Origin: Acidisarcina sp.
GTDB lineage: Bacteria; Acidobacteriota; Terriglobia; Terriglobales; Acidobacteriaceae
DNA length: 64,000 nt
Assembly: GCA_035539175.1 (NCBI GenBank)
Contig: DATLIY010000007.1
Span: forward strand, 372,001-436,000
Direction of reading: 5' to 3'
The notes under the pieces are model-generated. The model did not search any database. It was not told the DNA's origin and worked only from the letters and a program-made list of their open reading frames with translations. The translations under genes were made by a program, and so were the position numbers. Within the stretch, counting starts at the first letter, position 1. Each line of letters begins with the position of its first letter. Positions 1 to 61,885 of this stretch are shown one piece after another.

Positions 1-432
1 AAACGGAGCGCTGGTTCCCTTGCTGTCAGCAAAGACGTACACCCCAAGATAGCTGGTGTTTGCCAGTGCAACGACCTCATCGCGAATCCCGGCAATCTGT
101 GCGGAAATCGACTGCAGATTCGAGGCGTTCATGGTCCCATTGTTCGCCGAGGTGGCGAGGGAGATGGCCTGGGTCAACTGAGAGACGACCGAGCCCAATG
201 CAGTATCCGTCACCTGGAGCATGCCATGGACGGAACTTGCCGTTTGGGTGAAGGTGTCATCCCGGGATATCTGATTGCTCAGCAGCACATTCTGCCCGGA
301 AGCTACTGGATCATCGGACAGCGTGTTGACGCGCTTTCCACTGGCCAGCTCCTGCGTCAACTGCTGCTGTGATGCCACTGTCTGGTCCAATGCCCCTACA
401 AGATTTGAAACATAAAGCGGATTCACGCGCAT
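1..432 (-). CDS. flgL: Flagellar hook-filament junction protein FlgL (HAP3), N-terminal part
   Basis: The gene starts with ATG at 432 and is still open at the left edge, so only the first 144 residues are seen. The N-terminus has the flagellin-like helical D0/D1 pattern (MRVNPLYVSNL, then QQLTQELASGKRVNTLSDDP), typical of FlgL, which joins hook to filament with FlgK. A purine-rich ribosome site (GGGAGAG) lies about 10 bases upstream. It follows flgK on the same strand after a 72-base gap that contains a strong sigma-54 type promoter, so it need not depend on flgK transcription. I am confident of the family; the C-terminus cannot be judged. Confidence 0.9.
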   Translation of the reverse strand, partial: MRVNPLYVSNLVGALDQTVASQQQLTQELASGKRVNTLSDDPVASGQNVLLSNQISRDDTFTQTASSVHGMLQVTDTALGSVVSQLTQAISLATSANNGTMNASNLQSISAQIAGIRDEVVALANTSYLGVYVFADSKGTSAPF

Positions 433-469
433 CGCTGCTTCTCTCCCTGTCTTGCTGCCTGCGTTCTCG

Positions 470-485
470 TGCACATCTTGTGCCA
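470..485 (-). promoter_or_regulatory. Sigma-54 type promoter before flgL
   Basis: Read on the minus strand the site is TGGCAC, five bases, GTGCA. This gives the invariant GG and GC separated by ten bases, with a perfect -24 hexamer and four of five matches at -12. The expected start point, around 458-460, leaves a short leader that carries the flgL ribosome site. Confidence 0.75.
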
Positions 486-504
486 GCCCTCTGTAGAGGC
501 GGGC

Positions 505-1905
505 CTAGCTTACCGTGCTCTGCTCTCCAAGGTTCAGCGCCGAGGCCATCACCGAGTTCAGGATGGAAAATACCTTCGACGCCGCCTGAAAGGATCGCTC
601 CAGATTGCTCATGGCAGCGGCCTCCTCGTTCAAGTCCACCGTCGACAGCGCATTCCGCTGGTTCTGGAGTTGCGTCAGCGATGCCTGCTGCGCAGTGTTC
701 TGCGTGCTGCTAGCAGCTACGTTGCTGCCAAAGACAGTCACAAAGGAGGAGTAGAAGCTGGTCGCCGTCTGCCCGGGCGCGATCGTTGAATTCATCGGAT
801 CGGCCATATTGATGGCATTCGAATTATCCGTAGCTGCCCCACTCGACGTTGCCGCAGCTATACCGCTCGGATCGGTCAAAACCACCGACATATTCAGCGC
901 GGCTCCGGTTACAGCCGCCGGCGGGGCGAAGATATTGCCCCCCGCGGCTCCTGTCGCATCATAGCCGCCGCTGTTCATCGAATTGATCTTGGTTGCGATG
1001 CCATAGGCGAGCTGATCCAGCGAGCTTTGCAAATTTGGAATATCCAGGTCCCTCACCGCGAGCATGCCGCCGAGTTGACCGCCCCCTGCAACAAGCTGCG
1101 AGGTAATATCCGTCGTGCCAGAGTAGAAATGGGTCACGCCGCCGGAGGAGGAGGCCGTCAACGGGACCGCTACATCCTTGGCCACCAGCACCGCGCCTGA
1201 GGTAGTGGTCACCGTCAGGCCATTGCCCTCGGTGGGTATCGTATGGATGCCGATCAACTGCGACAATTGCAGCAGATCCTGCTGTCTCTGATCCTCCAGC
1301 ACTCCCGCATCGGTGGAAGGAGAGCCCGACTCGATCTGCCGGTTCAGGGAAGCGATCGACTGACTGAGCGAGTTCACCTGGCTAAGCAGAGAGCTGGCCT
1401 GATTGTCGAGCGAGGATCGTTGCTGACCCAGGCTGGCAGCCGCGTTCTGAATCGACTGCGCCAGCGTATTGGCTGCACTCAGCACCTGCTGGCGCAGCGA
1501 CGTGTCGCTTGGACCGCTCTCGAGCTGCGCCATGGAATTGTAAAAGCCGCTGATCGCCGAAGCGATTCCGCTCGAGGATGCGCTCGACCCACTCTGGCTG
1601 AAGATTCCCTCGACGTTATTCAGAGCGGCAAGCCGCGCACTGCCTGCTGCCGTCACCTGTGTCTGCTGTTGCAGGCGCTGCTCCAGCACGCGGTCACGCT
1701 GCGAAACAGAGCCGGTGAACGAGACTCCCATGCCATAGCTGAGCCCGCTCAGATGCACGGGATCGTTCTCCTGCCAGATTGCAGCTTCGCGGGTATAGCC
1801 CGGCGTGTTCGCGTTGGAGGTATTGTTGGCTACAACATTGAGCGCCGATTGATCCGCCGCCAAGGCTCCGGTCGCGATATTCCAGGCTGTATTCAACGTT
1901 CCCAT
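505..1905 (-). CDS. flgK: Flagellar hook-associated protein FlgK (HAP1)
   Basis: A 466-residue protein with the rod/hook-family N-terminal motif (residues about 5-38, including ALNVVANNTSNANTPGY) and the matching C-terminal helix (LERSFQAASKVFSILNSVM, near residue 435). It assembles outside the cell at the hook tip as the first hook-filament junction protein after export through the flagellar secretion system. Length is in the normal to short range for FlgK. It is the last gene of a flgM-flgN-flgK unit. The 164 bases between flgN and flgK hold part of a degenerate repeat and no clear promoter. Confidence 0.93.
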   Translation of the reverse strand: MGTLNTAWNIATGALAADQSALNVVANNTSNANTPGYTREAAIWQENDPVHLSGLSYGMGVSFTGSVSQRDRVLEQRLQQQTQVTAAGSARLAALNNVEGIFSQSGSSASSSGIASAISGFYNSMAQLESGPSDTSLRQQVLSAANTLAQSIQNAAASLGQQRSSLDNQASSLLSQVNSLSQSIASLNRQIESGSPSTDAGVLEDQRQQDLLQLSQLIGIHTIPTEGNGLTVTTTSGAVLVAKDVAVPLTASSSGGVTHFYSGTTDITSQLVAGGGQLGGMLAVRDLDIPNLQSSLDQLAYGIATKINSMNSGGYDATGAAGGNIFAPPAAVTGAALNMSVVLTDPSGIAAATSSGAATDNSNAINMADPMNSTIAPGQTATSFYSSFVTVFGSNVAASSTQNTAQQASLTQLQNQRNALSTVDLNEEAAAMSNLERSFQAASKVFSILNSVMASALNLGEQSTVS

Positions 1906-56617: not shown

Positions 56618-57409
56618 TCAGCTCTCCAACGAAGGGAGCGGCAGTGCGACGCCGCCGGACAATGCAGCGGCAAAGAGCAGATCCACCGAGGCGGGAAGCA
56701 CAGCGTTCGCCAAAGCAGAGCCGGCAAGAACCAGCACCGGCGTAGGCCCCGGCTCGATAGTGGAGAGTTCGTGCAACGTGGTCCGCTGTGCCTGCTGGTC
56801 TGGCTGCGCCGCGCGGCTGACGACGATGCAGGGCAGCGACTCCGGCAGCCCCTCCCGACGCCACTCGGAGGCCAGCGGCGCAAGGTCGCGCCCAGGCATA
56901 TAGACAACGCGCGTCGCGTCGTGCGTCGCGCGAGGTTGCGGCTCCGGCTCATTTGCATGGTGGCCGGAGGAGAAGAGAACAGAGGATGCGGAACGCCGAT
57001 CCGTTAACGAGCACTGAATGGAGGCCGCTGCAGCAAAGGCCGCGGTAATACCGGGAACAACTTCGCATGCCACGCCTGCTTCCCGCAGGGCATCCATCTC
57101 TTCCGCCGCGCGACCGAATACGAGAGGATCGCCGATCTTCAAGCGAACCACGCACTGCCCCTTGCGCGCCTGGTCGATCATCAGGAAGTTAATCTCTTCC
57201 TGCGTTACGCGCTTGCTGCCGCAGCGCTTGCCTACGTTGAGGATCCACGCCCGCCGATTGGCGACCGAGAGCACAGCGGCTGGCACCAGGTCATCGTGCA
57301 GAACCACGTCACAGGACGCGAGCAGACGCGAAGCCTTGACGGTCAGCAGTTCAGGATCGCCGGGACCGGCGCCGACAAGATAGACAGTTCCCTTCTTCGC
57401 AGCGCTCAT
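56618..57409 (-). CDS. cobA: Uroporphyrinogen-III C-methyltransferase (SUMT)
   Basis: A 263-residue methyltransferase. ATG at 57409 overlaps the met8 stop (ATGA). Motifs VYLVGAGPGDPELLTVKA, the DLV-type loop DDLVPAAVLSVA, RLKIGDPLVFGRA and VVPGITAA are all present. It makes precorrin-2, the precursor of siroheme, and feeds the Met8 enzyme encoded immediately upstream. Third gene of the nirA-met8-cobA operon. Confidence 0.94.
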   Translation of the reverse strand: MSAAKKGTVYLVGAGPGDPELLTVKASRLLASCDVVLHDDLVPAAVLSVANRRAWILNVGKRCGSKRVTQEEINFLMIDQARKGQCVVRLKIGDPLVFGRAAEEMDALREAGVACEVVPGITAAFAAAASIQCSLTDRRSASSVLFSSGHHANEPEPQPRATHDATRVVYMPGRDLAPLASEWRREGLPESLPCIVVSRAAQPDQQAQRTTLHELSTIEPGPTPVLVLAGSALANAVLPASVDLLFAAALSGGVALPLPSLES

Positions 57410-58038
57410 TCGGACACCGCCGATCGTCCAGCCGAGTTGAAGGCAAGCTGCCGCGTGGGGCATGCAGCCAGTTCGCAAACCGGGCGCTGCGCAAGCTGGT
57501 GGAGGAGCAACTTGCGTTCCTCGCCCGCGGGATAAGCGGCCAGAACCTCGCGGCGCAGTTGGCCGAGGCTCGCAAGCCAGGGACCAAGATCCTGCGGTAA
57601 CTGCTCGTCGATCTCCCGGCGCAGGCGCTGCGCCAGAGCGGGGCTTTCTCCCGCGGTTGAGATGGCGATCTGCAGATCGCCGCGCCGGACGACGGAGCCG
57701 AAATAAAAATCACAGTGCGGAGGATCGTCCACCGCATTGCACAGGATGCCGCGCTCGACCGCGCTGCGATATACCACCTGATTGACGGCGGCGGTGCTGG
57801 TAGCAGCGATGACCAGAAATGCTCCGTCCACATCGTGGACATCGAAGGCGCGGCGCAGCCAGACAATCCTGCCTGCGTTGGCAAGCTCCTGAATCTTGGG
57901 CAGCGCCTCGGGAGCAATCACCTGCACGGCGGCTTCCGCATCCAGCAGGCTGTGGATCTTACCCAGAGCGACCTCACCGGCGCCGATAACAACCGAGCGC
58001 CGTGCGGTCAACTTGAGAAAGACTGGAAGAAGACTCAT
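57406..58038 (-). CDS. Precorrin-2 dehydrogenase / siroheme ferrochelatase (Met8-type)
   Basis: A 210-residue protein with an NAD-binding Rossmann motif (VVIGAGEVALGKI, residues 16-28), the catalytic Asp in NAVDDPPHCDFYFGSVVRRG, and the C-terminal dimerisation helices. It oxidises precorrin-2 and inserts iron to give siroheme. It overlaps nirA and cobA by 4 bases at each side, so supply of cofactor and apo-enzyme is coupled. Confidence 0.92.
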   Translation of the reverse strand: MSLLPVFLKLTARRSVVIGAGEVALGKIHSLLDAEAAVQVIAPEALPKIQELANAGRIVWLRRAFDVHDVDGAFLVIAATSTAAVNQVVYRSAVERGILCNAVDDPPHCDFYFGSVVRRGDLQIAISTAGESPALAQRLRREIDEQLPQDLGPWLASLGQLRREVLAAYPAGEERKLLLHQLAQRPVCELAACPTRQLAFNSAGRSAVSE

Positions 58039-59732
58039 TCCGCGACTCCATGCGGCACGCGACCAGCGGGCACATCGCGCACCGCCGCTTCCACAACAGC
58101 GCCGGCGAGCTGGCCGCGCAAATCCTCATCGGCATGACGAGCAAAGTAGGAACGTAGACTCTCCTCCGGCAGACGCTCGCGCAGATACACACGCAGGAGT
58201 CGCTCAATGGCTTCCGGCACCTGATCTGCAGGGCAACGGTAGCCGACTGGGCGCGCAGTGCCGGAGTGCTGGCCCACGGCTCCTCCCAGGCAGAAGTAAT
58301 AGGCGTCGGTAAGCTTGCCCTCGTGCTTGATCTTCTTGCCCTCAAGCCCGATATCCGCGATCCAGTGCTGGCCGCATCCATTGGGGCAGCCGGTAACGTT
58401 CAGCTTGATCTGCTGATCGAAGCCGGGCAGCCGGTCTTCCAGTTCATCGACCAGCCAGCGGCTGAAGCCCTTGGTCTCGGTAACTGCGAGCTTGCAGAAC
58501 TGTGTACCGGTGCAGGCAATGGAGCCGCGGTAGAAGTTGCTCGCCTCCACACGCAGGCCAATCTGATTCAGTTCCCGCGCAAGCTCGTTGGTTCGCGCAT
58601 TGGGCACGTTGACAATGACGAAGTTCTGCATCACGGTGGCACGCAGTTCGCCGGAGCCGAAGCGCTCTGCCAGCTCGGCGGCCTGCTCAAGCTGTTCCCC
58701 GGTCATGCGGCCGCCAATCACGGAGGCCCCCACATAACTGAGCCCAGGCTGCTTCTGCGGGTGGATGCCGACATGGTCGCGGTAGATGTCCAGTGGAACC
58801 TGCTCCTCGACGGCGGGATCGAGGCGGAAGCCTATTTGCGATTCCAGCTCGGTAAGGAAGCTCTCCGGGGTCCATCCCTCTTTCAGGAAGAGATACTTCA
58901 GGCGAGCTCGGTCGCGGCTTTGGCGCAGCCCTTGCTGCTTGCGGAAGATCTCCGTAACACCGTGGATGACGGCAGTGGCCTGATCCTGCCGGACAAAGGC
59001 GTTCAACTTCACGGCAAGATGCGGCTCCTTCGAGAGCCCGCCGCCGACGCGAAGGCTGTAGCCCACCTCTGAGCCGCGACGCACCGCGGTGAGGCCAACG
59101 TCGTTAATCTCCGGATAGCAGCACCACGCCGGGCAGCCCGTAACGGATACCTTGAACTTGCGTGGCAGGTTGTAGAACTCGGGATTGGCGGTGAGCATGT
59201 GGGCAGCTTCCACCGCGAGCGGCGAGGCATCGATCAGCTCATCGGCTGCAATTCCGGCCAGAGGGCAACCGGTGACGTTGCGAACGACGTCTCCGCAGGC
59301 GCCCTTGGGTGAGAGCCCGACGGCGGTCAAAGCTTCAATCACGGCGGGCAGTGACTCGATCGTGAGCCAGTGCAACTGGATATTCTGGCGGACCGTGATG
59401 TCGGCAAGGTTGTTGGCGTACTTCCTGGTGAGCTGTCCGATGACGCTGAGCTGCGCCGAAGTCAGCAGCCCGTTGGGAATGCCGACACGCATCATGAAGT
59501 ACTCGGTGGCCTTGCCCTCTCCACCCACTCCGCCAACGGCACCCACGCCATCTCCCTGCGTGTAGATGCCCCACCACTTGAAGTAGACACTGGCCCACTC
59601 CGGCAGGACACTGGAGCGGCCATCGCGAGCGAAGGCGCGTATCTCCTCCAGGGCCTCCCAGGGGTTCTTGTCGCGCTTCAACCGCTCCATCCGCTGTGCT
59701 TTCGTCTCTTTTACCGGAACTTCCGTAGCCAT
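58035..59732 (-). CDS. nirA: Siroheme-dependent sulfite (or nitrite) reductase
   Basis: A 565-residue ferredoxin-type reductase with two ferrodoxin-like half repeats and siroheme domains. The cluster-binding cysteines are C407 and C413 (ACTGTQFCK) and C449 and C453 (GCPNGCGQH). It carries out the six-electron reduction of sulfite to sulfide or nitrite to ammonia. Sequence alone does not settle the substrate. The Cys-rich leader ORF upstream and the absence of nitrate genes favour sulfite. A terminator-like hairpin lies 21-57 bases before the ATG. Confidence 0.9.
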   Translation of the reverse strand: MATEVPVKETKAQRMERLKRDKNPWEALEEIRAFARDGRSSVLPEWASVYFKWWGIYTQGDGVGAVGGVGGEGKATEYFMMRVGIPNGLLTSAQLSVIGQLTRKYANNLADITVRQNIQLHWLTIESLPAVIEALTAVGLSPKGACGDVVRNVTGCPLAGIAADELIDASPLAVEAAHMLTANPEFYNLPRKFKVSVTGCPAWCCYPEINDVGLTAVRRGSEVGYSLRVGGGLSKEPHLAVKLNAFVRQDQATAVIHGVTEIFRKQQGLRQSRDRARLKYLFLKEGWTPESFLTELESQIGFRLDPAVEEQVPLDIYRDHVGIHPQKQPGLSYVGASVIGGRMTGEQLEQAAELAERFGSGELRATVMQNFVIVNVPNARTNELARELNQIGLRVEASNFYRGSIACTGTQFCKLAVTETKGFSRWLVDELEDRLPGFDQQIKLNVTGCPNGCGQHWIADIGLEGKKIKHEGKLTDAYYFCLGGAVGQHSGTARPVGYRCPADQVPEAIERLLRVYLRERLPEESLRSYFARHADEDLRGQLAGAVVEAAVRDVPAGRVPHGVAE

Positions 59733-59752
59733 ATTTACCCTCAGAAAATAGA

Positions 59753-59789
59753 AAGCCCGCGCTGTCAGCTTAAAGCTGTGCGCGGGCTT
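59753..59789 (-). terminator. Attenuator-like terminator in the nirA leader
   Basis: On the minus strand AAGCCCGCGC pairs with GCGCGGGCTT (arms 59780-59789 and 59753-59762), with a second inner CAGC/GCTG stem, followed by TCTATTTTCT. It lies between the Cys-rich upstream ORF and nirA, where it would stop transcription before the structural genes. Confidence 0.82.
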
Positions 59790-59825
59790 CGTTTTGGACT
59801 CTTGAAATCTATAGATGTAAGAGGT

Positions 59826-59903
59826 TTAACGAAGGGTACACCGGCTCAGCACGTGGGTACACGTGCAACAGAGAGTCACCGGCATCATTCGTAGAAAACC
59901 CAT
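59826..59903 (-). CDS. Cysteine-rich leader peptide of the nirA operon
   Basis: A 25-codon ORF: MGFLRMMPVTLCCTCTHVL then SRCTLR. Four of 25 codons are Cys (TGT TGC ACG TGT, then TGT). Its ATG at 59903 lies 7 bases after a -10 box, so it sits at the predicted transcription start and would be translated leaderless; no ribosome site exists. Internal ATGs at 59888 and 59885 are alternatives. It precedes a terminator hairpin and a reductase for sulfur assimilation. The likely role is cysteine sensing by ribosome stalling, like the polycysteine leaderless ORFs known in mycobacteria. Confidence 0.72.
   Translation of the reverse strand: MGFLRMMPVTLCCTCTHVLSRCTLR
59849..59866 (-). other. Hairpin over the Cys codons of the leader ORF
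   Basis: GCACGTG, loop TACC, CACGTGC: a perfect 7-bp stem formed by the TGC-ACG-TGT codons and those after them. A ribosome stalled on these codons would open it. Further on, CTTCGTT (59828-59834, end of the ORF) is complementary to AACGAAG (59787-59793) at the base of the terminator, a possible antiterminator. Confidence 0.65.
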
Positions 59904-59909
59904 GTCGAA

Positions 59910-59939
59910 AGTATAGGGATGTCGTCCCGCCACAGTCAA
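59910..59939 (-). promoter_or_regulatory. Promoter of the leader ORF and nirA operon
   Basis: On the minus strand TTGACT (59934-59939), 18 bases, TATACT (59910-59915). Six bases then separate the -10 from the leader ATG, so the message should begin at or next to the start codon. The remaining 146 bases to the upstream gene show nothing recognised. Confidence 0.75.
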
Positions 59940-60085
59940 GGAATGCTTATCCTGACGGCGCTCCGTCCGGGCGGGCTGCAAACGTAGTAAGCGGTTGAGA
60001 ACAATAGCAATGATTCCCTTCCCTAATTCCAATAATAATTCCTGGCGCATCAGTCCCGCGTGTTCGTTTCTGGTGGCAGGCGCAT

Positions 60086-61885
60086 TCAGGGCTTTGCCGT
60101 CGTGGCGGCAACGGGAGGCTGGGAGGGCTCGTCTACTTTCAGAATCTGATCGGCCTTGACGTCTTTCAGAACCTGCTTGATTCCACTGGGCCAGCGAATC
60201 TCGATCGATGGAACGACTGCATCGGAACCCAATCCAAAGTGCGCACGCTTGTCCTTTGAGGATTGATAACTGCCCGTAGTCGAGACAGTGACGTACTGGC
60301 TGCCATGCGGCGTGGTGACCTTGATCTCCGCGCCAATTGCATCGCGGTTGCTGGTGTGCCCCACAAGGTTCAGCAGAAGCCAATGATTCCTGGTCTGCGT
60401 GTCGTTGTGAATCACGTACGCCGGACCATCGTTGGTGCTGATAACGGCGTCGAGGCGGCCATCGTTGTCAATATCGCCGACGGCGAGACCACGGCTGACC
60501 CAGGCGTGCTGGAAGACGTCGCCGGAACCGGCAGAGACGTTGGTGAATCCCTTGCCGGTGTTGCGCGCCAGCATCATGGCCTCCGGATAGTGCAATTGGG
60601 GGAAGCTCATCTCGATGTTGTCCATCACGTGGGACTGGACAATCATCAGGTCTTTCCAGCCATCGTTGTCATAGTCCATAAAGCTGATTCCCCAGCCGGA
60701 GTGCAGCAGGGTCATGCTACCAATGCCGCTGGTATGGCTGGCGTAAGTGAAGCTGCCATCGCCGTTATTCAGGTAAAGGGCATACTTCTGATTCGCGAGA
60801 TCGGTGATGACGATGTCGGGCCAGCCGTCGTTGTTGTAGTCGGCAAAGTCCGCGCCCATGCCGGAGTAGGTGCGTCCATCGCCATCCACAGCAATCTCCG
60901 ATAGCAGGCCCACCTCCTCAAAGGTCCCGTTCCCCTTGTTGTGGTAGAGATGCTCCACCATGGCATCGTTTGCGATGAGGACATCTGGATGGCCGTCGCG
61001 ATCATAGTCCGCGATGGCGATACCGAGGCCTTTACCGGGCACGTCCAGCCCGATCTTTTTGGACACCTCGGTGAAGTGCCCATGGCCATCGTTGTGGAAA
61101 ACGAGCGGCGGCGCAGCTTCAAAAATGTCCGGATGGCAATAGCCGCGAAAGCCCTCCCGATGTTCGCCGCACCAGATGTCGTCGAAGTCCCACTTCATAT
61201 ATCGGGTAACGATCAGGTCCAGCAGGCCGTCGCCGTCGAGATCCGCCCAGGCCGCACTGGAGGACCAGATGCCAGGGCCGCCCGTGCCCGAGGCTTCGGT
61301 GATATCGGTGAATGTCCCGTTGCCGTTGTTGTGGTAGAGATGATTCGGGCCTACAGCGGAGGTAACGTAAAGATCCTCATACCCGTCGTTGTCATAGTCG
61401 CCTACGGCCACGCCCTGCCCGTAACCGGCACCCTGCAATCCGGCCTTCTCGGTTACATCCTCAAACGTGCCATCCTTCTTCTGGTGATACAGCCGATTCC
61501 AGTACTCGGGGCCGGTTTTTTGCGGTATGGAGCCCTTGGGAGTGGGGTCGGTGAGCGGGGCAACATTCACAAAATAAATGTCCAGCAACCCATCGTTGTC
61601 GTAATCGAACAGAGCAACGCCAGAACCCATCGTCTCAATCAGGTACTTCTTCGCAGTGTGGGTGGACATGTTGCGAAAGTGAACGCCGGACTTTGCAGTA
61701 ATGTCGGTGAAATCGCCATTCACTCCGTCAGCGGATGGAGCCGCCGCCGGGGCGGGAGTTGGCGCGCCCACCTGTGCTCGAAGGAGGAGGGATCCCAGAA
61801 TGCTGGTGGACGCAATCAACAGAAAGGCAGCGATCCGGCAGATTCGACTACGGTGACGAACAACGGACTCCAGGTTCACACTCAA
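60086..61885 (-). CDS. Secreted FG-GAP / ASPIC-UnbV (CRTAC1-like) protein
   Basis: A 599-residue protein with a TTG start (GTG two codons later is possible) and an N-terminal signal or anchor helix (IAAFLLIASTSILGSLLLRA). About seven FG-GAP calcium-type repeats follow (DYDNDGLLDIYFVN, DLDGDGLLDLIVTRY, DYDRDGHPDVLIAN), then the C-terminal ASPIC/UnbV domain (IGAEIKVTT, KRAHFGLGSDAVVPSIEIRW). It is an extracellular beta-propeller; the family is greatly expanded in Acidobacteriota and its function is largely unknown. Divergent from the TPR gene. Confidence 0.9.
   Translation of the reverse strand: MSVNLESVVRHRSRICRIAAFLLIASTSILGSLLLRAQVGAPTPAPAAAPSADGVNGDFTDITAKSGVHFRNMSTHTAKKYLIETMGSGVALFDYDNDGLLDIYFVNVAPLTDPTPKGSIPQKTGPEYWNRLYHQKKDGTFEDVTEKAGLQGAGYGQGVAVGDYDNDGYEDLYVTSAVGPNHLYHNNGNGTFTDITEASGTGGPGIWSSSAAWADLDGDGLLDLIVTRYMKWDFDDIWCGEHREGFRGYCHPDIFEAAPPLVFHNDGHGHFTEVSKKIGLDVPGKGLGIAIADYDRDGHPDVLIANDAMVEHLYHNKGNGTFEEVGLLSEIAVDGDGRTYSGMGADFADYNNDGWPDIVITDLANQKYALYLNNGDGSFTYASHTSGIGSMTLLHSGWGISFMDYDNDGWKDLMIVQSHVMDNIEMSFPQLHYPEAMMLARNTGKGFTNVSAGSGDVFQHAWVSRGLAVGDIDNDGRLDAVISTNDGPAYVIHNDTQTRNHWLLLNLVGHTSNRDAIGAEIKVTTPHGSQYVTVSTTGSYQSSKDKRAHFGLGSDAVVPSIEIRWPSGIKQVLKDVKADQILKVDEPSQPPVAATTAKP

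Follow-up and report, generated by a model that had tools for sequence, protein, structure and literature searches.

A candidate leaderless cysteine attenuator upstream of the nirA-siroheme operon in Acidobacteriaceae

The window analyzed here, a stretch of 64,000 nucleotides from Acidisarcina sp., carries on its minus strand a three-gene operon headed by a nirA-like gene and preceded by a short leader. The closest solved relative of the nirA-like product is M. tuberculosis NirA (1zj8, E 8e-89), which we take to be a sulfite reductase. The genes and the parts of the leader are as follows:

58035-59732, minus strand: nirA-like siroheme 4Fe-4S reductase, probably an assimilatory sulfite reductase (Pfam PF01077, PF03460)
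57406-58038, minus strand: siroheme synthase of the N-terminal type (precorrin-2 dehydrogenase), overlapping the end of nirA by 4 nt
56618-57478, minus strand: uroporphyrinogen-III C-methyltransferase, third gene of the nirA operon
59934-59939, minus strand: -35 hexamer TTGACT, read directly; TTGAC is conserved at -36 to -32 in 117 aligned leaders
59910-59915, minus strand: -10 hexamer TATACT, separated from the -35 by an 18-nt spacer and followed by 6 nt and then ATG
59826-59903, minus strand: predicted leaderless leader-peptide ORF of 25 codons with 4 Cys, conserved as a Cys-rich short ORF in relatives
59859-59870, minus strand: putative control codons TGT TGC ACG TGT (Cys Cys Thr Cys); leader Cys codons favor UGU compared with those of nirA genes
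59838-59885, minus strand: predicted 1:2 structure (protector or pause hairpin) of segment 1, around the Cys codons, and segment 2 (from folds and co-adaptation)
59819-59851, minus strand: segment 2, predicted 5′ strand of the antiterminator, made up of the ORF codons after the Cys run and a few nt beyond the stop (from the duplex and co-adaptation)
59774-59802, minus strand: segment 3, predicted 3′ strand of the antiterminator, which takes in the terminator's 5′ arm (from co-adaptation; 93% identity within the genus)
59742-59790, minus strand: predicted intrinsic terminator, with a stem-loop at 59790-59752 and a T-rich tail at 59751-59742 (-26.9 kcal/mol)

The leader ORF (59903-59826; product MGFLRMMPVTLCCTCTHVLSRCTLR) sits inside a longer open frame and has its ATG at 59903. 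Its Cys codons are TGT 59870, TGC 59867, TGT 59861, and TGT 59840, three of the four falling within four codons. A 7-bp hairpin, GCACGTG/CACGTGC, lies at 59866-59849, and the complementary stretches CTTCGTT and AACGAAG lie at 59834-59828 and 59793-59787. The terminator stem-loop is followed by CTATTTTCTG, and the nirA ATG at 59732 is preceded by an SD-like GAGGG at 59742-59738, outside the terminator stem. A first-pass annotation of this DNA had named five elements (a promoter, a leaderless 25-codon ORF with four Cys, a hairpin, the CTTCGTT/AACGAAG pair, and a terminator), and direct reading of the minus strand finds each of them where it had been placed. The 7-bp hairpin over the Cys codons is present as described there, but it is only the inner part of the larger 1:2 structure at 59885-59838.

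Folding of the leader is more stable than that of 200 out of 200 shuffles (z -4.6). Taken within the window alone, the promoter is at chance level (1 found in 3 kb, with 0.7 expected), such that its significance rests on relatives. The built-in terminator scan of the window does not list the hairpin of this nirA leader, probably on account of its asymmetric upper stem. Searching 59000-61000 on both strands against Rfam (E up to 1) returned no match to the leader itself, and NCBIfam returned none to the leader peptide. The lone Rfam match, RF02886 on the plus strand at 59236-59372, falls outside the leader and is at chance level (E 0.58; 15.1 bits versus a gathering score of 72).

Relatives were drawn from two sources. 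The first was a set of 300 Acidobacteriaceae genomes, 248 of which have a match; upstream DNA was used for 80 of these matches (the first 60 by score order, with some skipped, and the last 20 chosen further down the list). The second was named genomes, with 591 relatives, of which the best 80 were used; named relatives are Acidobacteriaceae (Terracidiphilus, Occallatibacter, Granulicella, and Edaphobacter). Cultured strains carrying the leader include Terracidiphilus gabretensis S55 (L100, also numbered L025), Granulicella rosea DSM 18704 (L143, also L081), and Edaphobacter modestus DSM 18101 (L120). Including the window, this amounts to 161 upstream stretches; five exact duplicates were removed and one of the remaining 156 was too short, so that 155 were scanned. 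A candidate ORF with at least two Cys is present in 150 of the 155 stretches and absent from 5, and the more stringent threshold of at least three Cys in five codons is reached in 127 of them (124 of 149 once six near copies are removed). When only the 149 stretches long enough for an upstream control are considered, a short ORF with at least three Cys in five codons lies within ~330 nt of the nirA-like gene in 122 cases, versus 2 of 149 control stretches situated 450 to 780 nt upstream and 13 of 745 dinucleotide shuffles. Without near copies, these counts become 119/143 versus 2/143, and with a search span of 700 nt, the Cys-rich ORF is recovered in 125 of 150 loci (near copies included). Near copies are also included in the 122/149 count and in the 117-leader ATG alignment and 128/128 terminator count described below; the pairing, stall-model, codon-usage, and -10-offset analyses drew on at most 117 leaders, those left after similarity thinning. 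Within the spans of the Cys-selected ORFs, Cys codons are divided among the three frames as 718/295/110, a comparison that is partly circular. The leader peptides are 17 to 33 aa long (5 to 95% range) and, in 117 leaders, contain 3 to 11 Cys; spacing is variable too, but a Cys run is kept.

Twenty-four of the 143 nonredundant loci fall below the Cys cutoff in the 330-nt stretch. Three of these (L020, which corresponds to L096; L068, which corresponds to L128; and L161) have a leader further upstream, at the head of the operon; L002 and several others possess a leader whose Cys are fewer or more dispersed; and L028, L062, L066, and L122 lack any candidate Cys ORF in the scanned upstream stretch. 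In L096, the genes run cysD-cysN-cysH-nirA (named from how their N-termini look), and a Cys leader accompanied by TTGACT is found ahead of cysD, at a distance of 3.77 kb upstream from nirA. The Cys leaders of L128 and L161 each precede a membrane protein-like ORF located before nirA. The leader moves with the head of the operon. Others among the fourteen loci inspected in this way, including L153 and L159 (from records labelled Methylomirabilota and Rokuibacteriota), showed no leader.

In L072, the region from -389 to about -50 before nirA contains a Cys ORF, MVCASPSRSCCRLSNIFDGCLF, that closely resembles the leader found before cysD in L202, and a short ORF between it and nirA looks, by eye, like a truncated CysD N-terminus; this looks like an operon rearrangement in which the leader was retained. 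L095 and L132 are Acidobacteriaceae-type nirA genes with upstream Cys ORFs in records labelled Opitutia and Verrucomicrobia, representing either misbinned contigs or transfer.

L002 comes from the other genome of the same genus. It has lost one Cys codon out of four (F-C-S-M-C) and kept the whole architecture, indicating that single Cys codons are not fixed. When the genus's two genomes are aligned, segment 3 is 93% identical, the remaining terminator and the start of nirA are each 81% identical, and the ORF is 78% identical; the promoter (64%) and the linker (61%) are less alike, and the stretch ahead of the promoter has 41 to 43% identity. The alignment of related nirA leaders that the first-pass annotation had proposed as a check comes out in its favor, with the ORF, Cys codons, +1 promoter, and terminator kept and the rest drifting. 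As to the loss of Cys codons or terminator in close relatives, which it had named as contrary evidence, the terminator is retained in 128/128 leaders and the Cys run in most loci (119/143), but one codon has gone in L002.

When 117 leaders are aligned on the ATG, which was picked blind to promoters, the upstream signals that emerge are TTGAC at -36 to -32 and TAnnnT at -12 to -7, as predicted for an AUG at +1, and no SD-like signal appears upstream of the leader ATG. A -10-like hexamer ends 5 to 8 nt upstream of the ATG in 81 of 108 leaders, compared with 5, 4, 8, and 9 of 108 at four other offsets; the combination with a TTGAC-like box is found in 51 of the 108, compared with 0 to 2 elsewhere. 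A -10 ending 6 nt upstream of the ATG, as in the window, places +1 at or beside the A of the ATG, and the upstream ORF would begin at the very 5′ end of the RNA. From this sequence geometry, the promoter is predicted to set the start point at the AUG. Leaderless genes account for 13.3% of genes on average in three Acidobacteria genomes, according to the available part of one study (PMC3160421). Chance as the origin of the leader is ruled out by the Cys ORF counts, the ATG-aligned promoter signal, and the terminator counts, to which we now turn.

A hairpin of -8 kcal/mol or lower with a T-rich tail lies between the ORF and the gene in 128 of 128 leaders (127 with at least three Cys in five codons, plus L002; 125 without near copies), whereas mononucleotide shuffles yield 35 of 128. 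The GC-rich terminator ahead of nirA that had been read in the window (59790-59752, -26.9 kcal/mol) therefore has equivalents in every leader examined for one. The presence of this hairpin bears on an alternative, that the leader works by translational attenuation as in mycobacteria: a stalled ribosome would expose a sequestered nirA ribosome-binding site, and the hairpin would be no working terminator. Mycobacteria do have the same gene behind the same kind of leaderless Cys ORF (PMC4633059, in the part available), and cysteine genes of M. smegmatis are placed under translation attenuation in the accessible part of another report (PMC13236596). Against this, the strong hairpin carries its T-rich tail in all 128 leaders, and in 128/128 its 3′ end is 17 nt or more ahead of the gene match (median, 48 nt), so that an SD held within the stem itself is not expected. 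In 102 of 117 leaders, an SD-like tetramer comes after the stem, moderately above the 59% in shuffles, and segment 2 is co-adapted to the terminator arm, as described below. We consider translational attenuation improbable and favor control by transcription termination.

The trp attenuator operates by a four-segment logic of alternative 1:2, 2:3, and 3:4 pairings. In the window, the putative antiterminator is an imperfect duplex of ~30 nt, pairing 59851-59819 with 59802-59774 and covering nearly the whole 5′ arm of the terminator. The pairing of CTTCGTT with AACGAAG, which the first-pass annotation took for the antiterminator, lies inside this duplex; however, its 7 bp fall well short of the full ~30 nt, and only four of its bases belong to the terminator stem. 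Across 117 leaders, the part of the ORF after the Cys run pairs with its own terminator 5′ arm at a mean of -21.5 kcal/mol, versus -17.6 kcal/mol with swapped partners (p = 6e-14) and -16.0 when shuffled.

The same comparison of own with swapped partners was applied to every pairing of segments in 114 leaders. The own partner is better than the swapped mean in 77/114 leaders for helix 1:2 (p = 1e-7), 90/114 for 2:3 (p = 1e-13), and 113/114 for 3:4 (p = 2e-20), leaving 37, 24, and 1 leaders, respectively, with no own-partner advantage. The control pairings 1:3, 2:4, and 1:4 display no co-adaptation (47, 53, and 58 of 114; p = 0.12, 0.53, and 0.98). These p values ignore relatedness, although note that the three control pairings, taken from the same sequences, share that relatedness. 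Judged by these pairing energies, the pattern is the pairing table of a classical attenuator. At the level of individual base pairs, the inner hairpin shows a double-sided change from C-G to U-A in L002, and RNAalifold, applied to two 27-row alignments, yields for A1 a terminator stem of 7 bp, for A2 a 1:2 stem of 4 bp, and little else.

One group of leaders (L035, L048, L050, L077, L114, L117, L129, and L148) has a second Cys stretch of the ...VRRxLCL... type following the main run and no advantage of own over swapped partners in 2:3, and similar leaders (L116, L120, and L130) do have that advantage. The helix arrangement may differ in this subgroup.

The co-adapted helices also bear on a second alternative. 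A Cys-rich peptide could act in trans, for example, as a metal- or thiol-binding microprotein, with the RNA features being those of an ordinary terminator. The conservation of Cys would fit such a role, and the TrpL leader peptide of S. meliloti has a reported trans function (PMC7298713, part of the source available). But beyond the Cys run, the length of the peptide and the number and spacing of its Cys all vary widely, and the stretches flanking the run belong to the co-adapted helices. We regard a trans-acting peptide as extremely improbable next to a leader that acts in cis.

Codon choice within the leaders is strongly skewed: of 295 leader Cys codons, 196 (66%) are UGU, as against 50 of 582 (9%) for nirA at the same named loci (p = 6e-72). 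In the window, nirA has 0 UGU and 11 UGC, and the leader uses UGU for three of its four Cys. Attenuators are known to be marked by rare control codons. The same bias could nevertheless mean slow decoding even with charged tRNA-Cys, in which case the signal would not be cysteine but a general slowing of ribosomes or redox or charged-tRNA stress, the Cys codons being just a slow spot, given that UGU is rare. For such a device, a rare codon for another amino acid would do equally well, whereas the codons that cluster are those of Cys and the target genes are those of sulfate reduction. A signal other than cysteine thus appears very improbable, and cysteine, sensed through its charged tRNA, is the signal we adopt below.

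How a ribosome on the leader would affect the terminator was modeled by folding the transcript as far as it extends before the terminator 3′ arm is made and taking the probability that the 5′ arm is occupied by upstream RNA. This probability averages 0.67 when the ribosome occupies the first Cys codon of the run, 0.47 when it occupies the last, 0.22 when it is at the stop codon, and 0.50 with no ribosome, and it is 0.48 when segment 2 is shuffled. The corresponding values for the window are 0.81, 0.69, 0.01, and 0.42, with 0.37 for shuffled segment 2. The difference between stall and stop is partly trivial, because a ribosome at the stop leaves less RNA free, but the shuffle control is not trivial. 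Once the 3′ arm is made, the terminator is favored in every ribosome state (means of 0.85 to 0.94; 0.85 when stalled, with 0.86 for the window). Because the terminator dominates at equilibrium even with a stalled ribosome, antitermination must be kinetic, i.e., decided during transcription. Without a ribosome, the model gives an intermediate state (0.50) and not an off state. The logic put forward in the first-pass annotation, by which a stall at Cys codons frees CTTCGTT and full translation covers it, agrees with both the pairing statistics and this folding of the nascent arm.

Sequence statistics establish the parts and how they are conserved, the geometry with AUG at +1, the mutually exclusive helices, the rare-codon bias, and the link to sulfate-reduction genes; from these, we infer translation, stalling, read-through, and cysteine response of the leader along the following lines. 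RNA polymerase would start at the A of the leader ATG, and a ribosome would load onto the 5′-terminal AUG and translate the 25-codon ORF. With ample Cys-tRNA, it would reach the stop codon and cover segment 2, such that the 3:4 terminator forms and transcription ends before nirA. When Cys-tRNA is scarce, the ribosome would stall at UGU UGC ACG UGU, masking segment 1 and leaving segment 2 free to pair with the emerging segment 3; this antiterminator would block the terminator, and nirA and the two siroheme genes would be transcribed. Were no ribosome to load, 1:2 would compete for segment 2, and termination should be favored. We consider it very probable that the nirA leader is a ribosome-mediated transcription attenuator that senses cysteine via charged tRNA-Cys; most likely, the nirA operon is switched on only under cysteine shortage.

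The reading of the first-pass annotation, a cysteine attenuator for nirA and its siroheme genes, is supported, and similar leaders also occur on cysD and on a receptor gene. In the same genome, cysD (L192, Pfam PF01507) is preceded by the Cys ORF MISTLPIRACRMNRSCCTCNSMGVCRRGCEHG (MASTLTLRLCRMNRSCCTCNSMRICRRGCEHG in the same-genus genome) and then by a terminator of -23 kcal/mol; its -10 is poor, making leaderlessness less sure there. Divergent from cysD is the gene for a 1,052-residue outer-membrane beta-barrel receptor (PF25183 plus CarboxypepD_reg), which we read as TonB-type. Two tandem Cys ORFs precede this gene: MRLSAPFTCCMCRTPRSCMWRHASMNRTMNL, with a terminator of -15.2, and then MSFTPKLSLCCCSCC, which stops directly after the Cys. 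The promoter geometry is weaker, with the ATG 11 nt after the -10. Among receptor loci, a Cys ORF lies within 700 nt in 8 of the 9 nearest (at least 61% identity), and among the other 21 there is one, which is doubtful; L360 and L361, which are among these remoter loci, have none in the 180 and 381 nt viewed before the open frame.

The tandem receptor Cys ORFs are kept in the same genus (L337:1840-4998, minus strand, and upstream; L341, reverse, -386 to -110; and L342), and the second of them ends CCCSCC-stop, so that Cys adjoins the stop, as in mycobacteria.

Scanning the genome itself for the motif TGTTGYNNNTGT gave 68 places, versus 52 in the control reading (40 + 28 versus 25 + 27); the motif alone is a weak marker. 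Only nirA and cysD, out of these 68 places, join a promoter score of at least 5 with a terminator of -20 or better. Other cysteine genes appear to lie largely outside this group: no Cys leader was found in any of the 20 cysK-type matches listed, cysE has a Cys ORF at 1 of 6 loci over the family cutoff (1.2 to 1.35 kb away and before another gene), and the 14 cysS loci include one weak candidate. Separately, in genome G004, which has no nirA match, a secreted-looking protein that matches DUF3034 is encoded downstream of a short Cys-rich ORF, a GC-rich hairpin, and a T tract (L249:147-314 and 407-1330, plus strand); it is possibly a further Cys-controlled member.

Nine upstream stretches from the sister family of the order (L209 to L216 and L225) include seven with a leader of at least three Cys, where L225 is counted after allowing for a match that starts inside the gene; L215 has a leader with two adjacent Cys, and L216 is too short. 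Elsewhere in the phylum, nine nirA-like loci of other classes comprise one with a clear leader (L224, whose operon by the look of it contains nirA, cysH, a gene of unknown function, and a uroporphyrinogen methyltransferase), one with a weak leader (L217), and seven with none. Neither of the two nirA paralogues L227 and L228 has a Cys leader.

We lean slightly toward a broader view, in which leaderless Cys attenuators would be a main level of control over sulfur assimilation in Terriglobia, and perhaps in Acidobacteriota more widely, responding to a single cue, charged tRNA-Cys, at separate operon heads: nirA-siroheme, cysD-cysN-cysH, and the TonB-type outer-membrane receptor with its two tandem Cys ORFs. 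If this is true, the receptor is predicted to take up a sulfur compound, and the nirA-type gene would be a sulfite, not a nitrite, reductase. Cys leaders also serve as functional labels, flagging probable sulfite reductases among nirA-type genes as well as anonymous TonB-type receptors that may belong to sulfur metabolism. More generally, the leader represents a complete and conserved candidate for a cysteine transcription attenuator without a 5′ UTR in a large soil phylum, one in which, according to the available part of a 2010 survey, almost no predicted attenuator had a known function (PMC2965389).

The first-pass annotation knew of no such leader described in this phylum, and no paper on Cys attenuators in Acidobacteria was found in the literature searched, in which subscription journals are thinly covered. 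Lopatovskaya 2010 (Mol Biol 44:128) is said to be an attenuator survey and may hold relevant cases, and mycobacterial leaderless Cys ORFs were reportedly tested by Canestrari 2020. Each element was known before; what is new, as far as our searches show, is how the elements are combined, the set of genes, the conservation, and the phylum.

Mycobacteria provide the closest parallel, as had been pointed out: the part of Shell 2015 available to us describes leaderless Cys-rich upstream ORFs, including one before nirA/Msmeg_4527, and states that cysteine-directed attenuation would be a first for bacteria (PMC4633059). The two groups share a leaderless Cys ORF, target genes of cysteine metabolism that include nirA, and several loci per genome, to judge from the same portion. 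In mycobacteria, however, the Cys run is near the stop codon with no conserved terminator, as far as the available part of PMC1262725 goes, and control is called translational in that of PMC13236596. The acidobacterial leaders, by contrast, have a median of 10 codons after the Cys run (10 in the window), which hold the antiterminator strand, and a terminator-like hairpin in every leader tested. Cys leader peptides had been predicted in 2005 for Mycobacterium, Propionibacterium acnes, and Bifidobacterium longum, with no terminators in the part of that paper available; rho-dependent termination was proposed, and its authors call the prediction weak (PMC1262725). These leaders resemble ours in being short ORFs that contain Cys-codon runs; they stand ahead of cys operons and of cbs.

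A nearer match in architecture is the uORFC-8-2 motif of Rhodobacterales cysS, from the accessible part of a 2021 survey, which is a predicted Cys-codon ORF with an intrinsic terminator (PMC8632094). There, too, the Cys codons lie in the first stem and the terminator comes next, but the gene is cysS, the phylum is another, and two tandem Cys codons with UGC favored stand in place of the 3 to 11 Cys, UGU bias, and nirA gene (in the window) of the acidobacterial leaders. The trpL leader of S. meliloti likewise combines a leaderless leader peptide with a terminator, its RNA starting at the ATG (PMC7298713, in part). The trp, his, and leu attenuators follow the same four-segment logic and differ in amino acid, genes, and phylum. 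Since mycobacteria and Acidobacteria carry such leaders on the same gene with an apparently different output (translation in the former, termination in the latter), convergence versus common origin becomes a testable question.
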